Below, piece by piece: positions 9,109-63,423 of a stretch of DNA of 64,000 nucleotides. The DNA lies in NCBI RefSeq assembly GCF_000328475.2, contig NC_026482.1, positions 620,001-684,000 on the forward strand, given 5' to 3'. This DNA is from Mycosarcoma maydis. Its lineage: Eukaryota; Basidiomycota; Ustilaginomycetes; Ustilaginales. Within the stretch, counting starts at the first letter, position 1; the number at the start of each line of letters is the position of its first letter. The notes beneath the pieces are model-generated. The model saw nothing but the letters and a program-made list of their open reading frames with translations, did no database searches and was not told the DNA's origin. The translations under genes were made by a program, and so were the position numbers.

Positions 9109-9750
9109 TGATTCGACCCAGTCCGATGTCGCTAGGACAGCGTGCTGAGTCCAGCTGGTAGAACGGCGAAAAGGTTGCAATTTCGCACCAAGTTTGCCAC
9201 AATCGTGAATTACCGATCCTTGATCTTTATGCAAGCTAGCCCGCCTCGGCAGCAACGAAGCAGCCGCACGTGAAATCGCATCTCTGACCACGGCCATGGC
9301 TCAGTCGTGAGTCGTGAGTCGTAAGTCACAAGCGGCTCATAAAGCGGCCGAGAAAGGAAGCAGTACTTGCCTCCTGAATGGGTTATGTTCTTCACCGCTG
9401 TGATCAGCGAATCAAGAATCACGAGAAACACGAACCATGAGTGCATTTAAGAATTCAGTCACGAGTCACGAGTCTGTGAGTGGCAAGTCGGTTTTCGGAT
9501 CGGATGGCATTCACGATTGCGATCACCAGACATGACAAAACAAAATTTCCCGTACAAGAAATTCGACATAAGTTCAGCTAACTTAAAAAAAACTTGGACC
9601 ATGGTGTCTTGAATGAAATCGTGAATACATGCATTCATTCGTGATTATTGTTTTGCTCCAATACCAAGATTTGTGTCTTGTGTGTGATCTCCTATGCGAC
9701 TGGCTGACAAACTAGTGGGAGGATTGCCGTCCTCGGAACCACCCTAGGTG
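9109..9750. other. Intergenic repeat-island DNA including an unoccupied insertion site
   Basis: Heptad arrays lie at 9303-9333 and 9457-9473. The stretch from about 9620 to 9750 is paralogous to the sequences now flanking the copia element (about 11885-11964 on its left, 18613-18680 on its right), so it represents the pre-insertion site. No gene is seen. Confidence 0.6.
9303..9333. repeat. Heptad array, AGT anchors
   Basis: AGT at 9303, 9310, 9317 and 9324, then AGC at 9331, exactly 7 bp apart. Cores are CGTG, CGTG, CGTA, CACA. Confidence 0.92.
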
Positions 9751-10334
9751 TTCAATATTCTCGGTGAATCCTTAGCGGGCGCTAGATGATCGAAGTCTCC
9801 CTTTCCATAGAGAGGCGAGTTGGGACTGAGTAGGGTCGAGAATGGTTTGGAATGTATTTGGATAGTGTGAATTGGACAAGGGACTAACTACAAAGTGTGA
9901 GCGTTCCCTCTGTATTTATGTACATGAGTCGACTGGAGTATCCTACATGAGCTTCTCCCTATACGTCGCCTGCTCATACAACTGACTAGCTGTGGCCACA
10001 ACTGGCCAGATGCATGAGTCTGTTCTCTTTCAGGTTCTATCACTTGGTGCGAGTCGTGAGTCTGTAGCCAACGGCATATTCGTGATTCCCACAGTCGTCC
10101 AGCGACTTGTGTGAATTTACCCTGGGCTTCTCGCTACCAGCGCTATGTTATGGACCGGGTAAAACTCCGGCGTTCTGAGACACCTACTCGTACCCGTCCG
10201 GTGACTGAGAGGGTTGCGGACATTCCGCGAGCTTACTCGTTCCCATCCGGTCACTCGTGTGTACCGTTTGGGTAACTGCAAGGGCTGCATGATTGTGGGC
10301 GATCAGACTAAACGCCAATCGCAGATATTCTACA
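9751..10334 (-). repeat. Solo copia LTR, minus strand (copy B)
   Basis: Reverse-complement match to the LTRs of the full-length element. It runs from TGT-AGAATATCTGCGATTGG at the high end through the GCGCTGGTAGCGAGAAGCC, GGAGAAGCTCATGTAGGATA-like and AGCGCCCGCTAAGGATTC segments to the low end. The flanks AGGTG (9746-9750) and ACGTG (10335-10339) look like a 5-bp target duplication with one mismatch. The GC-rich 77-bp tandem block of the other copies is largely missing. Two 7-bp insertions relative to other copies lie at 10052-10061 and 10078-10087. Confidence 0.85.
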
Positions 10335-10761
10335 ACGTGACTTATGACTGAGTGTGGGGGATGAGCTGTATGATAAGATCCGTCTTGCTGATGCTAGAAA
10401 TTCAAAAATGAGCCACAAAATGATCAGGTTTCAAAAAGGTAGTATCTACCAGACCATGAATGCTGTGAAAATTCGTGATTCTGAATGTATGCTAATCATC
10501 ATTGGCCTGATCGTCTACAATTTTCCATTCGTGACAAAAAACAAAAAAACAAAAAAAAACGGAAGATCGCGTTCTAATAGCCACCCTTGAGCCTGGACTT
10601 CGAGAATAGATCAAGTATAACTTAAACGAAGCATTTTGACTCCATTGAGATCTTAAGAAAAAACAAATTTTAATGTTCGATGCACAATAAATACAGACTC
10701 GAAGCTTTTGGCCAGATGCTGAAGAAGACAACCAACGACTCGAAGGGGCACAATTATTTGC
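10335..10761. other. AT-rich intergenic spacer between solo LTRs
   Basis: About 430 bp, AT-rich, with A-runs at 10539-10560 and no supported frame, repeat or RNA gene. Confidence 0.5.
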
Positions 10762-11534
10762 TGTTCGAATTACGAATATCTGCGAATCGTGAATGGCATT
10801 TAGTCTGATCATTTACAATCATTCAGTGATTCACGATTCACGATTCACGATTCGTGATTCTGTGATTCATGATCTGAGTTACCCGACCCGGACACACGAG
10901 TGACCAGACGGGACCGAGTTAGTCCGCATTAATTTTATCTCCCCGACGGGAACGAGTTATCCTCAACAATCACGAATTTCATCCACGCTTTGTCCGGCGG
11001 GAACGGGCAAGCCCTGCGGTATGTCCGCAAATCACGAATTGTAAATTGTGAATCACAATCGTGAATATGCCCACGAGTACCGTAGCTAACCTGAGTTTCC
11101 ATGCTACATGACACAGCGCTGGTAGCGAGAAGCCCAGAGTAGATTCACACAAGTCGCTGGACGACTGTGGGAATCACGAATATGCCGTTGGCTACAGACT
11201 CGCACCAAGTGGTAGAACCTGAGGGAGAGCAGACTCATGCATCTGGCCAGTTGTGGCCACGGCTAGTCGGTTGTATGAGCAGGCGACGTATAGGGAGAAG
11301 CTCATGTAGGATACTCCAGTCGACTCATGTACATAAATACAGAGGGAACGCTCACACTTTGTAGTTAGTCCCTTGTCCAATTCACACTATCCAAATACAT
11401 TCCAAACCATTCTCGACCACTACTCAGTCCCAACTCGCCTCTCTAAGGAAAGGGAGACTTCGATCATCTAGCGCCCGCTAAAGATGGTCACCAAGAAATT
11501 GAATAGCGCCCGCTAAAGATCCACCAAAATCTCA
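10762..11534 (+). repeat. Degenerate solo copia LTR, plus strand (copy A)
   Basis: It starts TGTTCGAAT and then follows the LTR order: TTTAGTCTGATC, CACGAGTGACC-GACGGGA, AGCGCTGGTAGCGAGAAGCC, the CTCACACTTTGTAGTTAGTC block and AGCGCCCGCTAAAGAT. It is the most diverged copy. Its GC-rich tandem block is replaced by unrelated sequence. The 3' end carries a 35-bp duplication containing GCGCCCGCTAAAGAT (about 11470-11520). It holds four heptad gains or arrays: 10768-10777, 10785-10794, 10829-10859 and 11172-11181. Confidence 0.85.
10829..10859. repeat. Heptad array inside solo LTR A
   Basis: ATT anchors at 10829, 10836, 10843, 10850 and 10857, with cores CACG, CACG, CACG, CGTG. It sits where other LTR copies read straight from ACAATCAT into the GCAACC block. 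Confidence 0.9.
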
Positions 11535-11964
11535 AGAGGTCGCATTCGTGATTCGTGATTTATAGCTTGGAGCCTTCTATTGCGGCATTCACGATTGTGT
11601 AGGCTTCTTCAGTCTCACGGCTACATCAATCGTGAATTACGAATGCGTCTTGCTTTGATTCACGATTTCCTCATGTTGTCATTTTGCATATATTAAGGCT
11701 AGCAGACCGGTACTTTGCACACCCTTTCTTGACTTGCTCTCTCTATTTGTCAGGAATCACGAATAAGAGAATTTCGTTGTTTAATCAGTAATTGACGTTA
11801 TCTAAGACTTGTCATGATTCATGATTTTGCCAATCGTGAATCACGAATATTCACGAGTACCACCTTCTCGAATCGCTAGGCTACGAATACATGCATTCAT
11901 TCGTGATTATTGCTTTGCTCCAATCACGAATACCAGGATTTGCGTCTTGTGTGTGATCTCCATA
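11535..11964. other. Left flank of the copia element; repeat paralogous to 9620-9700
   Basis: 430 bp without a gene. Several single heptads (near 11545, 11632, 11838) are present. 11885-11964 is a paralogue of 9620-9694, with a 7-bp difference at 11922-11931. Confidence 0.6.
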
Positions 11965-12718
11965 TGTTAGAATATCTACGATTGGCGTTTAGTCTGATCG
12001 CCCACAATCATGCAACCCTTGCAGTAACCTAACCGGTATACACGAGTGACCGGACGGGAACGAGTAGGTGTCTCAGTACGCGCGCCATACGCGCGCGACA
12101 CGCACTCAGTACACCAGCGGTACGTCCGCGGTACGCGTGCGATACACTCGCAGTACGCGCGCCATACGCGCGCGACACGCGCTCAATGCACCCGCAGTAC
12201 GACCGCGGTACGCGTGCGATACACTCGCAGTACGCGCGCCATACGCGCGCGACACGCGCTCAATGCACCCGCAGTACGACCGCGGTACGCGCGCAAGTAT
12301 AGTAACTCGCCAGAGTTTCCCCGCTTCACAACATAGCGCTGGTAGCGAGAAGCCCAGAGTAGATTCACACAAGTCGCTGGACGACTGTGGGAACACGCCG
12401 TTGGCTACAGACTCGTACCAAGTGGAAGAACCTGAGGGAGAACAGACTCATGCATCTGGCCAGTTGTGGCCACAGCTAGTCAGTTGTATGAGGAGCTGAC
12501 GTATAGGGAGAAGCTCATGTAGGATACTCCAGTCGACTCATGTACATAAATACAGAGGGAACGCTCACACTTTGTAGTTAGTCCCCTTGTCCAATTCACA
12601 CTATCCAAATACATCCCAAACCATTCTCGACCCCACTCAGTCCCAACTCGCCTCTCTAAGGAAAGGGAGACTTCGATCATCCAGCGCCCGCTAAGGATTC
12701 ACCGCGAATATTCGAATA
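11965..12718 (+). repeat. 5' LTR of the copia element
   Basis: Begins TGTTAGAATATC and ends just before the primer-binding site. It contains nearly three copies of a 77-bp CG-rich tandem repeat (unit starts at about 12074, 12151 and 12228), followed by a unique U3/R/U5-like part. It differs from the 3' LTR by only about four small changes. Confidence 0.95.
12074..12300 (+). repeat. 77-bp CG-rich tandem repeat in the LTR
   Basis: The segment beginning CAGTACGCGCGCC recurs at 77-bp spacing (12074, 12151, 12228) and is dominated by alternating CG/TA-CG steps. The matching block in the 3' LTR spans about 17974-18200; the solo LTR at 18698 has a shortened version. Confidence 0.85.
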
Positions 12719-12731
12719 GGTTATGAGCCCA
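12719..12731 (+). other. Primer-binding site, internal initiator-tRNA-Met type
   Basis: GGTTATGAGCCCA immediately follows the 5' LTR. It is complementary to the anticodon stem-loop region of eukaryotic initiator tRNA-Met (GGGCUCAUAACC), not to a tRNA 3' end. That matches the half-tRNA priming known for Drosophila copia and relatives. Confidence 0.75.
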
Positions 12732-12768
12732 ATCAATGATCAAGACCTTGCCTTCTCCTCTATGAGGG

Positions 12769-13690
12769 TTGGACTACCCAAAACGGCTGATGTCCTCGGA
12801 GGACTACTTCGAATGGGCGACCTCGATGCAAAATGTCCTTTCGTGCAAAAACGCGAACTTATGGTTCATCATCGAGGGACGACTCGTCAAACCCGAGGAA
12901 CATCTGGGTGAGGGAGACCTTAAGGAAGTGAAGCTCGGCAACAAATTCCCTACTAAGGATATCGCCGAGTACTATCGAGCTGACGTGGAAGCACGCAGCA
13001 TACTCCTCAACTCCCTTGGACCCGCCCAACAAGCCCTGGTCGATACGTCAACTACTGCTCGAAAAGTCTGGGAGAAACTTCGCGAGAACTACGCGCAGAA
13101 CGTTGCTCAGCAGATTGCTTCACTCGAAGCGCAGTTGGCGAACCTACTACCAAGGAGATGACCAAGATCAACGTCTACTCCCTACAAGTTGGAGACTATC
13201 TGCAGGAAACTTGACCACGTGGATGCTCCGGTTAGCGGACTTCGCAAACTGAGAACCTTTCTGCGTGGCCTCGGTCCCCAGCACGATGTCTGGCGAAAGA
13301 TCTTCTACTTCAACACTCGTCTCTTCTTCCAGAAGGAAGGAGATTCCGACGAAACAGCCAACAAGAAGGCCCTGGAAGACTACGAAATTGCCGTCAGCAC
13401 GATTATGGCTGAAGAAGCCGAGCAAAAGTCTTTCCGGCGCCAATACCCAGCTCGGGCCATGCAAGCCCAGTCGCAGCCTGTCAAAAAGGGCAAAGACAAA
13501 TTCTGCACTAACTGCAAGAGGGATAACCATAACCTCGAAGACTGCTTCATGGAAGGAGGTCCCAAACACAAGGATCGCACCGAGAAGCAAAAGCAGAAGA
13601 AAACCAAGAAAGTGACGGGAAACCTGGCACAAGTCGACTCCGACGAGATGAATCTGTGTCTCCACGTGTCCACACCCGATGACAACGTCG
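12769..13690 (+). pseudogene. copia gag, frameshifted
   Basis: Capsid-like gag in pieces: the frame from 12769 (SSEDYFEWATSMQNVL... ARKVWEKLRENY), a short stretch in another frame around 13150-13205 (TKINVYSLQVGDYLQET), then back to the first frame (KLDHVDAPVSGLR...). A zinc knuckle of the form C-x2-C-x4-H-x4-C (CTNCKRDNHNLEDC) is coded at about 13503-13545. The family protein packages element RNA in virus-like particles. An apparent earlier ATG at 12723 lies within the primer-binding site and is out of frame with the rest. Confidence 0.85.
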
Positions 13691-15700
13691 CTCCCCAAAA
13701 TGAAACCTGGATCATTGACTCTGGCGCAAGCCGACACATGACCGGCGACAAGACCCTCTTCTCGACGTACGGACCATCTCCTGTCCAGGAGGTATTCGTC
13801 GCTGACAACAGAGGAGTTCCGGTTGCTGGGCATGGGCAACGTCAGACTGGTGATGAGTAACTCGAAGGGATCGCGGAAGTCGATTACACTTCAAGATGTC
13901 CTCCACGTTCCAGGACTTGGGAACAATCTCTTCTCTACACCACAGGTGCAACGCCTCGGTGGAAGCATCAACTTCACCAAGAAAACGGTCGAAATCTTCG
14001 ACAAAAAGGGTCGACTGGCCCTGAGGGGCAAACGCCGTGGAGATGTGAACTACCTGCTAGTGGAAGGAACTACCACCGCAGTAGCCAAACTCGTTACTAG
14101 CGAGAAAGCCTTGGACCAAGCCAAACTCTGGCACCAACGGCTAGGCCACCTCCACATGCAAGCCACGCTCAAGACAGCATCGCTTACCGACGGCATGAAC
14201 CTAAAGGCTATGTCGGGCCTCTCTGTCGGGAACAACTGCGAAACCTGCATCAAGTCGAAGCATAGGCACGCACCGATCAAGAGCCGTGGACCCCAAGACA
14301 ACTCGACCACTCGAGCTAGTTCACATGGATCTTGCGGGGCCTCTGCCGGAAGGCTTATCCAAAGAGAAATATTACCTACTCATGGTGGACGATTGCACGA
14401 GATACTGCTTCGGGGCGGCACTGATCTATAAGTCATCAGCCTTCCAAGCATTCCGAACCATCGATCGATGGACCCAAACGCAACTGGGAAAGCGTATCTG
14501 CCGAGTCCGAACGGACAATGGTGGTGAATTCTTGAGCAGAGAGTTCTCGAACTACCTCAATCACCGAGGTATAGGACGAGAGGTCACTCCAAGATTCACA
14601 CCACAATCCAACGGTCTCGTGGAGCGCACTAACCAGATTGTCAAGGATTATATTCGGTGCATGCTAGAAGAAGCAAACTTGACTACCCAGTACTGGCCAT
14701 TCGCCTTCAGTCACGGGCTGAAGCTTCGAAACATGTCGGCCACCAGCACGGATTCTTCCAAGACACCTCATGAAGGAATGCATGGCAAACGCCAGGATCT
14801 TCAAGGCCTCCGGGTCTTTGGGTGTAAAGCATGGGCACGCGTACCTGACGAACTCCGCAAATCCCTGGATCCCAAGTCTGTTGAATGCATACACCTGGGA
14901 CATGTTAGCAATAACCACCCTTACATATACAGACTCATGGACGTAGAAACCGGCCAGATCTTCACAAGTCGGCACGTCATCTTCCGGGAGAACGAGCGGA
15001 TTCGGCGAAAATCTGAAGCCCCCTTCGAGGAACTTTCAGATGATGAAACTGGAACCACGGGAAACAATCTCCCGAGGCCAGGATTACCGGCCCCGGTCCG
15101 CTCATCGCTGAACATCCCAAGGACTTCCCCATCGTCCGAAGAACCCAGTCAACCAGTGGGAGCCACCAACTACCCTCATCTCGCCTCAATAGAGGAAGCG
15201 CAATTAGCAGATACTACCGAGAGCGGTGATTCACTGGAGAGTCCAACTCAACAACTTGTTCCTTCAGCAGAATCCACAGATGACGAATTCCATGAACCGA
15301 TCAACCTTATTCCCTCAAGAAGGCGACCTCAAGACATCCGAGGCCGGGACTCCCCATCGCGGCATCAAGAAATAGATGACGAGTCCGATGACCCTCTCGC
15401 TCTTCTCCCGACTCCTCACCAAACAGTGGGAGGAGATACAACAACAGTGGGAGATACAAGAACAGTGGGAGACAAAAACAACGCAAACGAGAGCACGGGT
15501 GACGAGTCACGTTACAACCTTAGGGCAAGGCCCCACAGACTTGGCGATTACGCCCGGCACGTGACAACAAATCTTTCAAAGCCACCGGCCACCCTGAAAC
15601 AAGCTCGCATGCGCGCCGACTGGCCCCTATGGGAAGGTGCCATCCAGGCAGAACTCAAAAGTCATGAATCCAACAAGACTTGGACCCTCGTAGACCACCC
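13691..15700 (+). pseudogene. copia protease and integrase, frameshifted
   Basis: An aspartic protease core (IDSGASRHMTG) is coded near 13710-13745. A frame change near 13825 leads into the pre-integrase domain with the HHCC zinc motif (WHQRLGHLH ... CETCIKSK, about 14130-14260). Another change near 14290 gives the DDE integrase: first Asp in HMDLAGP, second in RTDNGGEF, Glu in NGLVERTN (about 14320-14640). A hydrophilic, Ser/Asp-rich linker follows. The catalytic residues are all present; only the frame is broken. Confidence 0.9.
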
Positions 15701-17224
15701 ACAAAACAAAGCCACCAATGTGGTCAGCTGCAAATGGGTATTCGCCCATCAAGAAAAAGGCCGATGGATCTCTCGACAAATACAAGGCACGACTCGTCGC
15801 ACGAGGCTTCACACAGCGATACGGATACGACTACGACGAAACCTTCTCTCCAGTAGTAAAGGCCACCACGTTACGCATCCTCATCGGCCTCGCCGCGGCA
15901 TTCGACTGGAAGATTGTTCATTGGGACGCAGTCACTGCTTTCTTAAACGGACGCCTATCGGCAGAAGTATACATGACGATGCCTCCCGGTCACGAAGTAC
16001 CCGGGAAGGTCTGCTTCCTGAACAAAGCCATACTACGGTCTCAAGCAAGCCGGCCGCGAATGGTACCTCTTCGCTACGAAGGTACTCGAACAGCTCGGAT
16101 TCACGAAACTGCAAGAAGACCACTGCCTCTTTCATTCCAAGAAGGCCGGACGACAGATCTTACTTGCATTATACGTCGATGACCTCGTCGCTGCGTCACC
16201 AAAAGCATCGGAACTCGCCTGGCTCCACACCGAAATCCAAACTCATTTAAAATCACAGATCAGGGCGATTTATCTTCTGTGCTCAACGTCAGCGTGTCGA
16301 AATCTACCAATTCCACTTCCCTAGGCCAACCTGGTTACATCCAAAAGATCCTCGATCGTTTCCAGATGCTCGAAGCGAAACCCGCCTTCACACCATTACC
16401 CGCCACTGGCATTGCTCATCCCGAAAACCCCGAGCACTGCTCCGTCGCGGACAAGGAACTCTTCCAACAGCTCGTAGGCTCTGTCAACTACCTGGCTTGC
16501 TACACTCGACCAGATGTGGCATACGCGGTACAAGCTCTCAGCCGCTATTTAGCTCAACCGACGATCCACGCACTCTCTGCTGGAAAACACCTTCTCCGTT
16601 ACCTCAAGACTACGCAGGACTATCGCCTCCGGTTCCCCAAACTAGCGAGTGGGAGGAATCTGACCCTAGAGGTCTTCACGGACGCTGATTTTGCAAACCA
16701 GAAGGCGATTTACTCTCCCAATCAAGAGTTAACCACCAAAAACAAGATCGTCATACCGGTCGACACAACAAACACCCCTCGCAAAAGCGTCACAGGAATG
16801 ATCTTCCTAATGAACGGTTCCCCAATCAGCTGGCTATCCAAACAACAACCTATCATCGCAACCTCAACACAAATGGCTGAATATATCGCGGCCGCGGAAG
16901 GCGCGATAGAAGCGTTGTGGATCAGAAGCCTGTTTCATTCCCTTCAACTTCGAGGAAAAGAAGCAATACCTCACTACATTGACAACCAGGCAGCGATCCA
17001 GCTATGCAAGAACCCCGGTACTTCACAAGGCTACAAAGCACATCGACATCATCTACCACAAGATACGCGAATTGGCCGCCGTCGGTGTTATCAACATCGA
17101 ATATACCGAGTCAGGGGAGCAACGAGCGGATGCGCTCACAAAGACGCTCAACCGTCAGCAGATCGAAAAGTTCTGCAAGGAGATTGGCCTGAAAGACAGG
17201 TCCAACGAGAAATCCTCTCAATAA
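15701..17224 (+). pseudogene. copia reverse transcriptase and RNase H, frameshifted
   Basis: RT begins in one frame (VVSCKWVF) and switches near 15745 to a second with KARLVARGFTQ and DAVTAFLNG. It switches near 16030 to a third with YGLKQAGREWY and the catalytic YVDDL (about 16172-16186), and again near 16250. RNase H follows: FTDADFANQ, KSVTGMIFLMNGSPISWLSK, AEYIAAAEGAIEALWI. A last change near 17030 precedes the closing RADALTKTL block. All hallmark motifs are intact, so disruption is by indels and not by stop-codon substitutions. Confidence 0.9.
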
Positions 17225-17864
17225 ACTCCATGACGGAAACATCTGCCTTTCACAACCTTCAATTCGCCCTCGCTGAACGCGTGCGAAAACTAGGCAGATC
17301 GATACAACAGAAAGCCTGTTGGCCGCAGCTTTCGACCTGATGGGTTTGGATCATCCAAAGAAGGTCCCATCAAGGTTCAAGGACTTGCAAAAGGACTGGA
17401 AACCCAACTGACACAGTGGTATCCACAAAAGTCACCATGCACATTTCCTGATTCTCCCTCCACTGGAGGATAACGAGAACGAATACATGATGTATTCAGG
17501 GAACAAAACCTCACGCGTCGCCAAAAAACGAGCTGTGAAAGTTCCCAAATCACGAGCATCACGTAGGTTTCCCAGGACCATGGAGCAGTCAAGTAGTCAA
17601 CGAAAGCTCACCGAACGAAGCTTCAACGAGGGCCCACCTAGAGGAAAGATTCGCTGGAAAGAGCCGCAGCGCACCTCAAATGCCCCAGACACTTACACTT
17701 CGATCCGTAAGAGGACACGGCGCACACACCTTCCAAACTTGGACGGAAAGTTTTACGCCGCACACATCAAGACAGAGAGCAACATGGCGCGATCCCCACC
17801 GAGTGGGAGCGTCAGTGTCTCTGCGATTCATGATTTGGGCACTCAAACACCATTCGAGTGGGAG
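17225..17864 (+). other. 3' untranslated region of the copia element with polypurine tract
   Basis: 640 bp between the RNase H end and the 3' LTR with only short frames. The purine tract GAGTGGGAG at 17856-17864 directly abuts the LTR TGTTAG and would prime plus-strand synthesis. Confidence 0.7.
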
Positions 17865-18617
17865 TGTTAGAATATCTACGATTGGCGTTTAGTCTGATCG
17901 CCCACAATCATGCAACCCTTGCAGTAACCTAACCGGTATACACGAGTGACCGGACGGGAACGAGTAGGTGTCTCAGTACGCGCGCCATACGCGCGCGACA
18001 CGCACTCAGTACACCAGCGGTACGTCCGCGGTACGCGTGCGATACACTCGCAGTACGCGCGCCATACGCGCGCGACACGCGCTCAATGCACCCGCGAATA
18101 CGACCGCGGTACGCGTGCGATACACTCGCAGTACGCGCGCCATACGCGCGCGACACGCGCTCAATGCACCCGCAGTACGACCGCGGTACGCGCGCAAGTA
18201 TAGTAACTCGCCAGAGTTTCCCCGCTTCACAACATAGCGCTGGTAGCGAGAAGCCCAGAGTAGATTCACACAAGTCGCTGGACGACTGTGGGAACACGCC
18301 GTTGGCTACAGACTCGTACCAAGTGGAAGAACCTGAGGGAGAACAGACTCATGCATCTGGCCAGTTGTGGCCACAGCTAGTCAGTTGTATGAGGAGCTGA
18401 CGTATAGGGAGAAGCTCATGTAGGATACTCCAGTCGACTCATGTACATAAATACAGAGGGAACGCTCACACTTTGTAGTTAGTCCCTTGTCCAATTCACA
18501 CTATCCAAATACATCCCAAACCATTCTCGACCCCACTCAGTCCCAACTCGCCTCTCTAAGGAAAGGGAGACTTCGATCATCCAGCGCCCGCTAAGGATTC
18601 ACCGCGAATATTGAATA
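17865..18617 (+). repeat. 3' LTR of the copia element
   Basis: Matches 11965-12718 almost base for base, including the 77-bp repeat block. Seen differences: CGCGAATACG at about 18094 against CGCAGTACG at 12194, one C fewer in the CCC run near 18482, and one C missing near 18613. Confidence 0.95.
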
Positions 18618-18697
18618 TCCTATGCGACTGGCTGACGAACTATTGGATGGATGGTTGTCATCGGAACCACCCTAGGAGCCACCTGCGAGGGGTGATC
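18618..18697. other. Host repeat between the copia element and solo LTR E
   Basis: 80 bp of the host repeat family: the right flank of the copia site (TCCTATGCGACTGGCTGAC, as at 9690) leads into CATCGGAACCACCCTAGG. It ends at the insertion point of the next LTR. Confidence 0.7.
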
Positions 18698-19330
18698 TGT
18701 TAGAATATCTGCGATTGGCGTTTAGTCTGATCGCCCACAATCATGCAACCCTTGCAGTGACCCAACTGATATACTCGAGTGACCGGACGGGAACGAGTAG
18801 GTGTCTCAGTACGCGCGCTCAATGCACCAGCGGTACGTCCGCGGTACGCATGCGATACACCCGCAGTATGCGCACGACATGCGCTCAATGCACCCGCAGT
18901 ACGACCGCGGTACGCCCGCAAGTATAGTAACACGCCAGAGTTTGCCCGGTTCACAACATAGCGCTGGTAGCGAGAAGCCCAGAGTAGATTCATACACGAC
19001 TGTGGGAATATGCCGTTGGCTACAGACTCGCACCAAGTGGTAGAACCTGAGGGAGAGCAGACTCATGCATCTGGCCAGTTGTGGCCACAGCTAGTCAGTT
19101 GTATGAGCAGGCGACGTATAGGGAGAAGCTGATGTAGGATACTCCAGTGGACTCATGTACATAAATACAGAGGGAACGCTCACACTTTGTAGTTTCACTG
19201 GTCCAAAACAAACTATCCAAATATACATTCCAAAGCGTTTTCGACCACTACTCAGTCCCAACTCGCCTCTCTAAGGAAAGGGAGACTTCGATCATCTAGC
19301 GCCCGCTAAAAATTCACCAAAATATCAACA
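18698..19330 (+). repeat. Solo copia LTR, plus strand (copy E)
   Basis: TGTTAGAATATCTGCG to ATATCAACA, with TGTT/AACA ends. TGATC precedes it and TGATT follows, a 5-bp target duplication with one change. The empty site exists on the minus strand around 20684-20725 (GCGAGGGGTGATTGCTGTG). The 77-bp block is shortened. It lacks the 7-bp heptad gains found in copies A and B. Confidence 0.9.
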
Positions 19331-20569
19331 TGATTGCTGTGAGAAGCCACCTATGACCTACCCTGGGTGGTTGCCGGGGTGGTTCCTAGGTCGACTTTTT
19401 CCTTTTTTCACGACATGACTCATGACTGTTGCAAGAGAGTTACTGGCAAAGCCAGCAGCTTGCGGGAGCATCGATCAGAGAGGAGAAGTATGTCCTCATG
19501 ACTGAAAGCACAGCGGATCTCAAGCATCTGAAGGAGGTCGATAGTGGAGGACCAACGAGATGTTGTGGCCCTTCCGTACCGGGACCGACACTCGTGACTA
19601 TGCCACCGAGCCCAACAGTGGGCAGGCCAGCTTCTACCGGATGCAGCATCAGGGCTAGACCAAGACGAGCAAGCTTATAGACGAAGCCAATCATGAATCG
19701 TCAGCGGATAGATGTCCGCATGAAACTCGACCTTGGCCGAGACCTTGCTGATCAAAAGACGGCAGCGTGCACAGACTGGCTCAGCGCGAGGCTGCTGCGA
19801 CGTGTACAGAGGGAGGAGCGGTATGCTTCTGTTGCTGGCGCCGATACGGGTGTGGTGCTGCGGATGCTGCTGCGGGTACTGCCGACGCTGTTGATACTGT
19901 TGATGCCGACACTGATGATGTTGCTGCTGCTGTGATCGGCGCTGGTGCTGACACTGCTGAAGCCACACTATCAGATCTTGTCCTCGCCCCTTCTGCTAAG
20001 CGTCGATGCTCTCTCCTTGTCTCGTGCCATCTCCACTAATCGTAAGTGAAGGTCTTGCCACCCTCGCGTCTACAGAGACAAAGTCTGTGGCCCCATTGAG
20101 AGCGCGATAAGCTGCTCATGGTGATGGCGAGGTGAGGGGGGCAGACTGTCAGCGGCATCTCTTGTCCACCGACCATGGACCGTACTGCAGCCTCCGACCG
20201 TCTGCGGCAAGCGATCTCGATCCAGCTGGGATGCTTCGTCTTTGTCCTCCTCTCGCAAGTCACTCTCCGCCAATGGCCACAAAAGCCCCTTCGTTAACTG
20301 CCTGAGTTAGTTGGTAAGCATCATCCTATTCCTTGTCGCCAGCTTTCCCGCGCATCATTCACGAGTGTGACCTGCTAACCCGCCCCATTCATCGCGCTGG
20401 TCTCGCTTACTCGTTTGGCTGCTGGCCCTTTACTCACTCGTCCATCTCACTTGCTTGCTCGCTCGTTGGCTTTAATTAATTTATTATATTCGTGATTCAT
20501 GATTGCATCGACAACAACTGTGGCGTATTGAGCTGTATGCTGTGACCAGTTGATTGATGGGGTGGTTGC

Positions 20570-24674: not shown

Positions 24675-24727
24675 AGTCACGAGTCACCATTCGTGATTCG
24701 TGATTCGTGATTCGTGATTCACGATTT
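24675..24727. repeat. Heptad array with anchor and core switching
   Basis: Eight anchors in 7-bp phase: AGT at 24675 and 24682, ATT at 24689, 24696, 24703, 24710, 24717 and 24724. Cores are CACG, CACC, CGTG four times, CACG. Both the anchor type and the core orientation change within one array without loss of phase. Confidence 0.95.
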
Positions 24728-47735: not shown

Positions 47736-50700
47736 TCAACTGCGATCAGCCGCAGCCGCAGCCGCAGCATGAAGCTGGTGGTGTGGCCGAAACTGCAGCT
47801 GGACCACCTCGTCCGGCGTCTCATGTTCGGACTCGGACTCGGTGGCATCGAACGACGATTCGGGCTCAACGCGAACGCGCACCAGTACCTTGGAGCGACG
47901 CAACGCCGATGGCTTGAGCGGCGTAGCGCGCGCCGAGGCCACCTTGTCGACCTTGGCGATGCACTCCGGCGTGAGGATGTTGGCATCTTTGCTGCTTAGC
48001 GGTGTGCGCATCTTGACGCGAGGCGTGGTATCAGCCAAACTCGGCGCCGCGGTTTTCACGCGAGTAGAGCTGATGCTGACGGGCGAGACGGCTGCTTCAC
48101 TGGGATGGTCGGAGCGTCGCTCCTCGACCATTGACGCTGGCTCGCCATCGGGGCTGATTTGGGTTTGACACGTGCTCACGTGCATATCGACTGTGCCACC
48201 AGTAGTGTGCTCCTCGGATCGCGTCTCAGTGCGCTCCGGGGTCTCGCTTACGCATCTGGTCTCGCCGACGGTCTCTACCTCGCTCACGGCAGCAGGAGCA
48301 CCTACTTGCGCCGCTTGCTGTTCGGCCTCGACTTCTGCCTCGCTGACACGCGTTGCTTCTGCTTGCTCCTCCTTGGCCTCTCGAGCCTCGATCACAGCCT
48401 CGACTTCTGCCTCGCTGACACGCGTTCCTTCTGCTTGCTCCTCCTTGGCCTCTCTTGCGTCGAACACAGCCTCGACCTCTCCCTCGCTGACACGCGTTGC
48501 TTCTGCTTGCTCCTCGTTGTCCTCTCTTGCGTCGAACACAGCCTCGTCGGCCATCGCCTCGTCGAGAGTCCTGGCAAGCTCGACTCTGGCAACAGCCGCA
48601 GCAGACGCTCTTTGGTGTTTCACGATCTTGGCAGCCATAAGCGCGCCAGCCTTTTTGACGGCGCTCGGCTTATCCGAGCGAGCTGCTCTTGCTCGCACGA
48701 GCTTGCTCTTGGCAGTGATCGAGGCAGCGATCGAGCTCTTTGGGCGCGATTGCATTCGTGTCGTCGAAGGCTTGGTTGACGATCCAGATGGTTTGGATTG
48801 CAACGTGCTCTTGGCGACTGGATGCACCATCTTGTTGCGTGTCGACGCGGTGGATGCGGTCAGTGTCGATGTTCGTGCAGCGCTGATGGTGTCGTTCTGT
48901 TTGTTCGCCGACGGCGTTTTTGCTGGAGCTGCTGCTCCAGCTGCAGCGGTCGAGCCAACTGGCTTGCTGTTTGTGTCGATCTTGGCTCGTGCCATAGCTG
49001 AGCTGGTAGCCGTACTACAAGGCTTGGTAACCCGCTTGTTCGCCTTGACGCTCGTTGCTGTAGGTACAGCTGGCTTGGCAGGTGCTTTGGAAGCGCTCGT
49101 TGTGCAGATGAGCGGCTTGCTCACCGGTGTAGGTCTGACTGCAACTGCGGCGCGTTTGACAGCCTTGTTTGCCGCTGCACCAGTGGCGATCGGCACACAT
49201 CGGCTCGCGGCTTTAGCTTGGACGCGTGGCTTGGCTGTCAGCGATGCTGAAGTTGCTGCTCTGGCTGCCAGAGGCTTGCCAATTGCTTTGCAACTCTGCC
49301 CCGCCGAGCTCGCCGGTTTGTCGACGGCTACCACTGCTGCTACTGCTGTCCAAGCCTTGTCTTTGGCCTCCGTTTTCTTTTCGGTCGCTGCGATCTTGTG
49401 CTCTTCTTGCATCTCATTTTGCTCGATTTCCATCTTGTCCGCTTGATCCGTGGTTTTCGCGGCTGCTTCGCCGCGAACATGTTCGGCAGTCGTTGGAAGC
49501 ATTGCCGGTTCGGCATTGGTCGTTTGAGCACGTGGCGTACGGGGATATGCGCTCGTATTGGGTGCTTTGGGCACGGGACTTGACTCGACAGACACGCTTG
49601 TTGCTGGATTGCGCATCCTGGTGGCGGCGACCTTGGCGGATGGCGTGGGCACGGCTACGCGCATTGCCGAGACCTTGACTGCCGAGGGCACAGCGACTCT
49701 TTGCGCGCGCACTCTGCTGGCCTTTACGCCCGTTCTGGGCGTTTGCGCATGCAGGATGCGTTCAGGCGGGGTGCGCGGACGTTGGACTTCGTCCGAGTCC
49801 GAGTGCGAGTCCGAGACTGCGCATTCGACGGGTTCGGTCTTGCTCGTCTTGGTCCGCGCGGTGTCGGTGCGGGTAGTACTGTCCTGCACAGCAATCTGAG
49901 GCGCTGACTTGGATCGGTGCATCTGCTCGGCTCTCATGTCGACGTGAATTGCCGATCGGCGCGCTTCGTCGTGTGGTGGCTCCGGCTCGAAGCGCACCGT
50001 GACCGTCTTTTCGCGCCTCTTGTCCATGTGTTTCCAGGGGTTTTCCGACGTATCGCGCGGCAAACGGTCGCGAGATGCGGTCGAGTTGGCACTGGCCACT
50101 TCCACCACAGACGCTTGCTTGTGCGCCGCAAGGAGCACACTCTTACCTTGCAAACCGGACGCAGCGCCGAACGAAGGCGCAGATGCATTGATGTCGCGAT
50201 ACGCAGATGCTTCGTTGTGTGCGCTCCGTGGACGCGCATCAGTGCTGTCCTGACTGCTGGGCGCGACGACCACATCGAACCTGGGCACGCGAAATGCGCC
50301 ACTGGCTGCAGCTTGTGTTCTCAGCTGCTCCAAGCTTGGTTGCCTCTTGATCGCTGCAGCAGCACAAGCAGTATCTGTAGGCTTGGTAGTGTCGTCAAAC
50401 TTGAACGATGGCATGCGCGCGAATCGAGCGTTTCGTGCTGCAGCAATTTGCTCGGCAAACAGTCCTCGCTTGCCGTACGATGCATCGTTCATGCTGAACG
50501 CTGGAGGTTTCGATGTGCAAGCGCTGGTTGACGATGCGGCTGTTGTGGATCTTGCGAGATCCGGGAAGAAGTTGTAGGCTGATGCTGGAGGAGGTTGAGG
50601 AGCGTGTACTGAGATGTGCGCTTGTTCGTGGCGCGTCGAGTGTGCACTTGTTGGCGCTTTCGACGCGTGCGATGCTGGTCTAGCCTGTTCTGTCAAGTGC

Positions 50701-51868: not shown

Positions 51869-51899
51869 ATTCGTGATTCACGATTCGTGATTCACGCTT
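51869..51899. repeat. Heptad array with alternating core orientation
   Basis: ATT at 51869, 51876, 51883 and 51890, then CTT at 51897. Cores strictly alternate CGTG, CACG, CGTG, CACG. Confidence 0.93.
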
Positions 51900-61994: not shown

Positions 61995-63423
61995 GGTAAC
62001 TTTCTGTCTTGTACAAGGTGGAGGGGAGAGCAAGTGAAGAAGGCGAGCTAAGCAGGAATGTTTCGAATCAAGGCACCGGCGCGATCAACGCTGCTGGACC
62101 AAATGGCAAGGAGAAAGTGGCACAAGACGAAGGCGGAACAGGAGAGGGAGCGAGACAGACGGTCAAGACGAGATGATGAGGAGGGAGCAAGAGAAAGCTC
62201 ACGCCGTTGGTCTCTGTCATGTATATAGCATCAAGGCTGGAACGGCTGCCAGCGCGTCAAACGAGGCCAAAAGACGAAAGACGACCAACGACCAACGACC
62301 AACGAACGCTTCGAATTCATGACCAGAAGATGGCGTCAAAGGCAGCGGGGCAGAGAGTCAAACAGAGACCTGGTGTTTCGGGCCAGGCTTGCATACTCTG
62401 TACAGTATGCAACACAGCACTTTGACAGAAGCAAGAATCACGAATCACGAATGGAAGCAGCATCCTCATCGAGCTGTGACAGCGAGCAGCAGCTAACGTT
62501 CAGGAGAGAGCCGAGAGAGCCAGACTAGACAGTCTGAGCGGTTGCTGCAAGACGTGCATGGCAGCCGAGGTGGTGCAGCGTTCACGCTTCGATTGGCAAA
62601 GTGGAATTCTGCCTTCACGCTTGGAGCTCCAAAATCGCGCGCATACGAAACCCAAGCGTGAAGCTGCCAGCGTCTTTGGTCGCACCCAACAACCGAATCA
62701 CAAATGCAGGCCAAGACCAACCGTGAACACACTCGTGCGTTTGCCGCTGCGGTTGCTTGGTGGTTGCTTAAGCGTAGCACCTCACATCGCATAGCTAAGC
62801 TGTTCATGATTCGATACGGCCAGGCGTTATTCACATTGCAGCTTGCTCCTAAGTTAGCAATTTGTGCGCGTAACAGCCCGCCGAAGCGTACTTTCAACGT
62901 CCCAGTCTCGACGTGCATAGCTTCATCCACAATTGCTTGCACAACTCTGTAGTATCCATCACGTTAGCCTTGGGTGCGTGGTGCCATTGAGCCCACAGCA
63001 CTCTCAAGGCCAACGCCAAGCGATGGACAGCTGAGATCGGAACAGGCGTAAGGGGCTGCGCGCGCGAATCACGAATCGTGAATTCCTTTTGGACGAAAGT
63101 CGTGAGTGCAAGCGTCGTGCGTGAAGGCACGAGGCGTGAGGTGCGTCGCTCTAGAAACCAAGCGTGTTACATTGAACAAGCGAACATGGACAGGCTTACG
63201 AATCGTGAATCACGAATTGATCTTCCGAATTCCGACAGTTGAACCCTGTCGCCGTTTTTTTTTCTTCTTCTTTTGTGCTCTTTCTTGCCAAAGTTTTTGA
63301 CAAAGCAGCGACAAATATCGAACACAGCAACTCGTGACTTACTCACGACTCTTGCCCTAAGAGGTTCGACATCTTTGACCATCACATCCCCATCCTTTTG
63401 TCCCACGGTCATCATTCATTATA
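61995..63423. other. Intergenic between divergent genes
   Basis: 1.4 kb. It holds the upstream region of the secreted-protein gene, a heptamer run ACGACCA (about 62281-62302), AAT-CACG-AAT pairs near 62437 and 63067, and a T-rich stretch at 63256-63275. No gene is seen. The minus-strand frame 62493-62942 has no domain. Confidence 0.55.
62281..62304. repeat. Heptamer tandem repeat ACGACCA
   Basis: Three units of ACGACCA followed by ACGAACG, 7-bp period, with a core unlike CACG. Confidence 0.85.

Follow-up and report, generated by a model that had tools for sequence, protein, structure and literature searches.

Abundant seven-base insertions, CACG between duplicated ANT triplets, in the genome of the smut fungus Mycosarcoma maydis

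Introduction

Transposons of the CACTA/CMC superfamily make 3-bp target duplications and have CAC...GTG termini. For Sleeping Beauty, the part of PMC7827188 that deals with excision describes footprints in which end joining leaves overhang bases between two target copies, the cuts being staggered by 3 bases inside the element. The TBE transposons of Oxytricha, which belong to the Tc1/mariner superfamily, produce a 3-bp ANT target duplication according to passages of PMC4724952 and PMC12242761, and the title of a reference cited by PMC4724952 terms TBE excision precise.

Here we analyse a unit of comparable architecture in a 64,000-nucleotide stretch of the Mycosarcoma maydis genome (NC_026482.1, positions 620,001 to 684,000; hereafter the window, numbered from its first base) and across the genome. 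The unit, or heptad, adds seven bases to a single triplet to give ANT-CACG-ANT or, in the other orientation, ANT-CGTG-ANT. Like the footprints of Tc1/mariner elements such as Sleeping Beauty and Mos1, heptads have a target copy on either side of a few bases that could derive from element ends. Those elements target and duplicate TA, whereas the heptad anchor is ANT, the core is CACG, and the putative scars number in the tens of thousands with no element found. The ANT duplication matches that of TBE-like elements, but TBE ends read CAAAACCCC... and their excision is termed precise, whereas heptads keep a 4-base remnant whose CACG core misfits ends of the CAAAACCCC type; the likeness lies in the ANT duplication. 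CAC+G and CAC+TG could be ends of the CACTA/CMC kind, whereas the heptad variants CACA and CACAG would suggest A, not T, as the fourth base. Heptanucleotide microsatellites likewise form tandem 7-bp arrays, but heptads are mostly single, mixed in orientation and flanked by anchors that depend on the site.

The original prediction held that no mobile unit or repair product of this form had been described. Its claim to novelty is narrowed by the footprint architecture reported in the cited part of PMC7827188 and by the ANT duplications given for TBE in passages of PMC4724952 and PMC12242761; what is new is how widespread the units are across the genome and that their source is missing. No description of heptad units was found among the matches listed from the literature examined, which consisted mostly of papers outside subscription: in the matched parts, the unit-sequence match in a smut paper (PMC2219887) is a primer, an Ustilago paper (PMC7358432) has a nine-base match, and a Fusarium paper (PMC3886883), among the sequence or term matches listed, names Ustilago.

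Results

The genome (19.66 Mb, 27 contigs) contains 27,565 matches to ANTCACGANT, which stands for ANT-CACG-ANT, against 262 for the reversed pattern, and 8,759 matches to AATCACGAAT against 7 for its reverse. Anchors were compared in a sample of 288,080 bases composed of the window, eight short loci and 20 segments of 10 kb each, in which the middle bases of A[x]TCACGA[y]T were equal in 412 of 460 cases (144, 46, 54 and 168 over the four bases). The two orientations were about equally frequent for each anchor (144 vs 168 and 46 vs 54). When one overlapping locus was subtracted to give 285,070 bases, with the related repeat copies L043-L069 left out, x equalled y in 400 of 448 cases. Unrelated four-base cores flanked by ANT triplets matched in 372 of 1,074. 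No core other than CACG exceeded 44 matched ANT occurrences in the 288,080-base sample, as against the 412 for CACG. Within the window, 140 of the 699 CACG or CGTG sites have equal 3-base anchors, and 109 of these are A-N-T. Matched anchors other than ANT also exceeded expectation (AAG 14 vs 1.4, AAA 11 vs 0.6, CTT 9 vs 1.1, with AGC also above), indicating that the duplicated triplet follows the target. Several one-base substitution forms of the core were over-matched in the 285-kb sample (CACA 40/48, CATG 21/25, CGCG 17/19 and TACG 20/27), as decay of older CACG would give. The phenomenon is real and far larger than first noted, and the counts suggest that the whole genome holds about 25,000 exact units.

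The heptads first came to attention through five comparisons between repeat copies, all of which we recovered in the window. Four concern a family of long terminal repeats (LTRs) with at least 43 genome matches (an initial screen gave 95 candidates, with 40 scored), of which 11 regions were fetched; most of the remaining matches score alike, at 95–96% identity to LTR A, and look young. Event 4 is the cleanest of the five. It is filled at 11172-11181 (+ strand, AATCACGAAT) in LTR A, an old copy at 10768-11485 (+) that carries several units and an array, and at 10078-10087 (- strand, ATTCGTGATT) in solo LTR B, at 9751-10332 (-), delimited by inverted repeats I1 and I7. The filled state in A and B is GAATCACGAATATG, whereas the older LTR E (18698-19327, +) is empty, reading GGGAATATGCC at 19004-19014. 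The empty form GAATATG is shared by E, L029, L031 and L032, L033 is one base off, and eight young copies read GAACACG. Event 1 (10052-10061, - strand, AGTCGTGAGT) is AGT-CGTG-AGT on the + strand, or ACT-CACG-ACT on the LTR strand, in solo LTR B. It is absent from LTRs A, C, D and E, but its supposed restriction to B fails because copy L031 (C4, about 70 kb) also has ACT-CACG-ACT. Events 2 and 3 lie on the + strand of LTR A, as AAT-TACG-AAT at 10768-10777 (AATTACGAAT), with a core one base different from CACG, and AAT-CGTG-AAT at 10785-10794 (AATCGTGAAT). In keeping with the proposal that they are private to A, neither occurs in the 14 other copies in which the segment was found (10 fetched copies plus B, C, D and E, L033 being possibly a neighbouring fragment), and L030 lacks the segment. 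Event 3 lacks an exact empty counterpart: where A has the unit, the other copies read GCGATTGGC, one base away from the expected GCGAATGGC.

LTR C (11965-12712, +) and LTR D (17866-18613, +), the 5′ and 3′ LTRs of a young retroelement, are 99.6% identical and carry no units, and the interval from 11932 to 19589, which includes this mostly coding-like element and LTR E, holds none.

Event 5, AAT-CACG-AAT at 11922-11931 (+, AATCACGAAT), belongs to a second repeat family, old and dispersed, with a length of about 130 bp. This family gave 30 genome matches, and 27 fetched copies were aligned with three window stretches, among them the two found by sequence search and alignment at 9620-9748 (+) and 11885-11966 (+). 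The second carries event 5 and the first keeps a single AAT at about 9660 (empty state CCAATACC near 9658), as the original comparison had it. At the CC-AAT-AC site, the 30 rows comprise 18 with a single AAT, three with a single altered triplet, two that are non-homologous and seven that are filled: AAT-CGTG-AAT in L049 and L050, AAG-CGTG-AAT in L046, AAT-CACG-AAT in the copy at 11885, a CGCG form in L062, and three-base cores in L067 and L068. At the GCG-ACT-GG site, 22 of the 30 rows have a single ACT, L047 has a single ATT, L058 has lost the site and two are non-homologous; L065 has ACT-CACG-ACT, L063 and L068 have CGTG forms, and L060 has a partial ACT-CAC. Further gains are ATT-CGTG-ATT in L046 and L049, a second AGT unit in L055, ATT-CACG-ATT in L061, AGT-CACG-AGT in L057 and ACT-CGTG-ACT in L044 and L055. 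Two sites are ambiguous in direction, one with AGT-NNNN-AGT and one with a 14-bp difference at ATT. The alignment indicates that individual empty sites have been filled repeatedly and independently, in either orientation. With both CACG and CGTG found at one empty site, these gains are accounted for neither by slippage nor by deletion across 3-bp microhomology. The claims that units were gained rather than lost and that slippage does not account for them are borne out, and fillings of opposite orientation at mostly empty sites speak against units that were always ancestral.

Indel lengths were tallied in the same family. Relative to L056, insertions with clean flanks numbered nine sites for 7 bp, equal to nine for 1 bp, with 5, 5, 2, 1, 3, 3 and 4 sites for 2, 3, 4, 5, 6, 8 and 9 bp, respectively; five of the nine 7-bp sites have the heptad form, one is degenerate and three are unrelated. 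Deletions relative to L056 showed no 7-bp peak (1 bp at 10 sites, 4 bp at 6, 5 bp at 5, 7 bp at 4). Relative to L050, insertions of 1 to 8 bp were found at 10, 6, 5, 3, 5, 2, 7 and 2 sites, and deletions of 7 bp at 6 sites, 1 bp at 9, 3 bp at 6 and 4 bp at 9. Seven base pairs, the length that the original prediction had proposed to tabulate, is thus a peak in this family, although indels of 1 bp and some of 4 bp are equally common.

The target preference is symmetric. In 193 single units oriented as CACG, C precedes the ANT pair in 40% and G follows it in 40%, each against a background of 26%, and the middle base of ANT is A or T in 69%, so that the preferred site is the palindromic C-ANT-G. 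Units are nearly absent from long open reading frames (ORFs): over 264 kb (the window plus the twenty 10-kb segments), ORFs 250 codons or more in length contained 2 units in 155,433 bases, compared with 368 in the 108,567 bases outside them, a density of about 61 units per 1,000 non-ORF ANT sites. We read this scarcity as selection against frameshifts, which would remove the products of such a mutational process from genes.

Among these 370 units, neighbours that share an anchor form 76 pairs of the same and 24 of opposite orientation. Random re-hits predict about 33 such pairs, half of them (about 17) opposite, and the opposite-orientation pairs are near that number; the same-orientation surplus probably reflects ordinary slippage on top of the insertion process. 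Single units make up 215 of the 270 runs, the longest run has 13 units, and 23 of the 55 arrays are mixed in orientation rather than head-to-tail. In the window, mixed arrays with ATT anchors in common are a four-unit array at 10829-10859 (three CACG, then one CGTG) and one at 24689-24726 (four CGTG, then one CACG); ATT-CGTG-ATT-CACG-ATT-CGTG-ATT alternates at 51869-51892, and the pair AAT-CGTG-AAT-CACG-AAT occurs at 11832-11848 and 63201-63217. The mixed-orientation pattern ATTCGTGATTCACGATT has 617 genomic matches against 0 for its reversed control. Together with the matched middle bases (400 of 448), the palindromic target and the gains in both orientations, this upholds the proposed architecture, in which four bases are inserted and a 3-bp target is duplicated around them.

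Length variants of the core were counted in the 285-kb sample, for which the measured nulls for matched anchors are 35% for three- and four-base cores (330/948 for unrelated three-base cores) and 27% for five-base cores (306/1,116). With one base inserted, CACAG had matched ANT in 21 of 27 cases and CACTG in 7 of 7, giving 28 insertions at CAC^G, versus 1 (CGACG) and 2 (CAGCG, CATCG) placed uniquely at the other two internal positions; CAACG, CACCG and CCACG (0, 2 and 1) allow no unique placement. One-base deletions were matched in 24/62 (CAC), 18/36 (CAG), 11/41 (CCG) and 5/21 (ACG), and given the null of 35% for three-base cores, the evidence for a joint from deletions falls away. Insertions therefore cluster at CAC^G, and deletions reveal no clear joint.

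The eight-base form ANT-CACAG-ANT (ANTCACAGANT) occurs 1,177 times genome-wide against 56 for the control. Among the first 100 listed CACAG sites, 82 are matched, with 49 C/G-centred and 33 A/T-centred by hand tally; in the sample the figures are 9 and 15, where CACG gives 120 and 392 (100 and 312 in the 288,080-base sample). In 15 of the 24 sampled CACAG units, the four bases next to the unit are CACG or CGTG on one side or both, suggesting that both classes act on the same sites, and the CACAG class may have a second, related source or another origin. An array of CACAG octads lies at C1:718781-718823.

No source element was found in the sequences searched. Inverted repeats sought in the window and a set of fetched loci included 62 with CAC ends, seven of the best eight being heptad pairs, and no resident element with CAC...GTG ends was found in the window and fetched sequences. 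Among half-site pairs of the form CACG...CGTG, 32 of 156 had matched anchors, no higher a share than in the other orientations (67/208, 51/216 and 38/150). Self-comparison of the sample, with low-complexity sequence masked and the LTR cluster excluded, gave 37 pairs and no source element; the pairs were heptad-rich stretches, one overlap between two loci and one local pair at 43.2 and 43.5 kb in the window. The profile PF02992 (CACTA, Transposase_21) matched neither this genome nor any of its 14 control genomes, and PF18759 (Plavaka) likewise matched neither the genome nor the controls.

Two transposase groups were rejected as sources on the copies examined. The Harbinger-type profile had three matches (L040-L042), and the ends of L040 and L041 look like AGAGGTTTTGG..., not CAC...GTG, as read by eye at both ends of L040 and one end of L041; L042 was listed for ORFs and units only. 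L040 (C2, near 1.20 Mb) and L041 (C7, near its start) are 91% identical over 861 bases and look degenerate. Four Tc1-like matches to DDE_3 (L070-L073) were fetched, and three were followed to their ends: L070 and L072 have no convincing ends, and L071, with a 33-base inverted repeat starting CGGGCTAGATC, has no ANT flank. The DDE_1 profile matched 13 times in the genome. The Tc1-like transposase gene in L070 (C10:465300-468900; ORF 1457-2539, - strand) is open and carries both a DDE_3 and an HTH domain. It has relatives at 56–59% identity in Ustilago trichophora and Sporisorium reilianum and shows no convincing terminal repeats; it is possibly domesticated, and any link to the heptads is conjectural.

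Discussion

We tentatively favour, with somewhat less than even confidence, the reading that heptads are footprints left by excision of a cut-and-paste transposon, one that duplicated a 3-bp ANT target and bore CAC...GTG ends. A recombinase would open ANT, preferably within C-ANT-G, with a 3-base stagger, and gap filling would duplicate the triplet. The inserted DNA would then leave, and end joining would retain three terminal bases from one end but a single base from the other, giving CAC+G or its mirror image C+GTG from source termini 5′-CAC...GTG-3′. The duplication follows the site and has a fixed length, and paralogues retain a single-target empty site at event 4 and in the old repeat. 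A larger element would have come and gone at each site, its ends would be those named, and end joining would be the closing step. Against this stand the strict 3+1 outcome, which is not forced by known chemistry, the unusual combination of thousands of scars with no intact copy, and one-base deletions that point to no joint. An annealing of 4-base CACG overhangs with two mismatches was rejected: it fits the equal orientations but not the one-base insertions, and 3+1 joining is preferred because these sit at CAC^G. The excess of CATG (22) and CGCG (18) that annealing predicts is similar to TACG (21), CACC (18), CAAG (18) and GACG (18) and below CACA (44), with CATG reaching 50 once the related repeat copies L043-L069 are included.

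Several alternatives dispense with a mobile element. In the first, a nuclease would cut ANT with a stagger of 3 bases; a fixed CACG would then come from a polymerase or from an RNA-templated enzyme, with fill-in and ligation completing the heptad in one step. Neither a source element nor a larger intermediate was seen in the sequences examined, the core hardly varies, and the same sites are hit recurrently, all of which suit such a process; both orientations arise more naturally from the joining of two symmetric ends, the one-base insertions cluster at CAC^G, and no enzyme is known to write the heptad in this way, so we regard it as possible but doubtful. A related proposal, which we hold to be rather unlikely, is that a dedicated endogenous activity makes 3-base staggered breaks at C-ANT-G and writes a fixed CACG into them without mobile cargo, perhaps as a domesticated transposase such as the Tc1-like gene at C10:466924-467346, leaving about 25,000 marks in non-coding DNA. 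Spread by templating, in which a broken ANT end anneals to a resident heptad over three bases of microhomology and goes back after copying one unit, would draw on abundant donors and on anchors three bases long. The excess of matched AAG, AAA and CTT anchors and a target preference that stays symmetric beyond the anchor make it improbable.

The remaining explanations fare worse. An ordinary 7-bp microsatellite, born by slippage and leaving single units as remnants of decayed arrays, would yield the surplus of same-orientation neighbours and the runs of up to 13 units, yet most runs are single, nearly half of the arrays are mixed, ATTCGTGATTCACGATT occurs 617 times and its reversed control never, and single gains appear at formerly empty sites, so this origin is very improbable. 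Loss of ancestral heptads by deletion between 3-base repeats could apply to the old-repeat site that has AGT-NNNN-AGT in many copies and a single AGT in L060, L061 and L063. It is hardly credible for the family: single triplets predominate at GCG-ACT-GG and CC-AAT-AC, the filled rows carry CACG in some copies and CGTG in others, and a single ancestor cannot hold both. Equally little weight goes to a selected protein-binding motif scattered in intergenic DNA; the units do concentrate outside ORFs, but positions 2 and 9 covary over all four bases, which a binding site would not need, and units are insertions in solo LTRs.

Heptads are a major class of insertion mutation in this smut fungus and point to a powerful, apparently undescribed source of mutation. 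If excision left them, the genome keeps a record of tens of thousands of jumps by an element of which no copy was found, which bears on how transposons persist and are lost; if they are one-step products, they point to a new DNA-writing activity. In either case, the units may mimic motifs and blur intergenic alignments.

Other repeats

The young LTRs contain a 77-base tandem repeat (window 12070-12300 and 17970-18200) whose copy number seems variable among LTR copies. On many contigs the LTR matches form one tight cluster, as might suit centromeres. Three tandem repeats with 72-base spacing, 90–94% identical, lie at 48325-48546 in the window.
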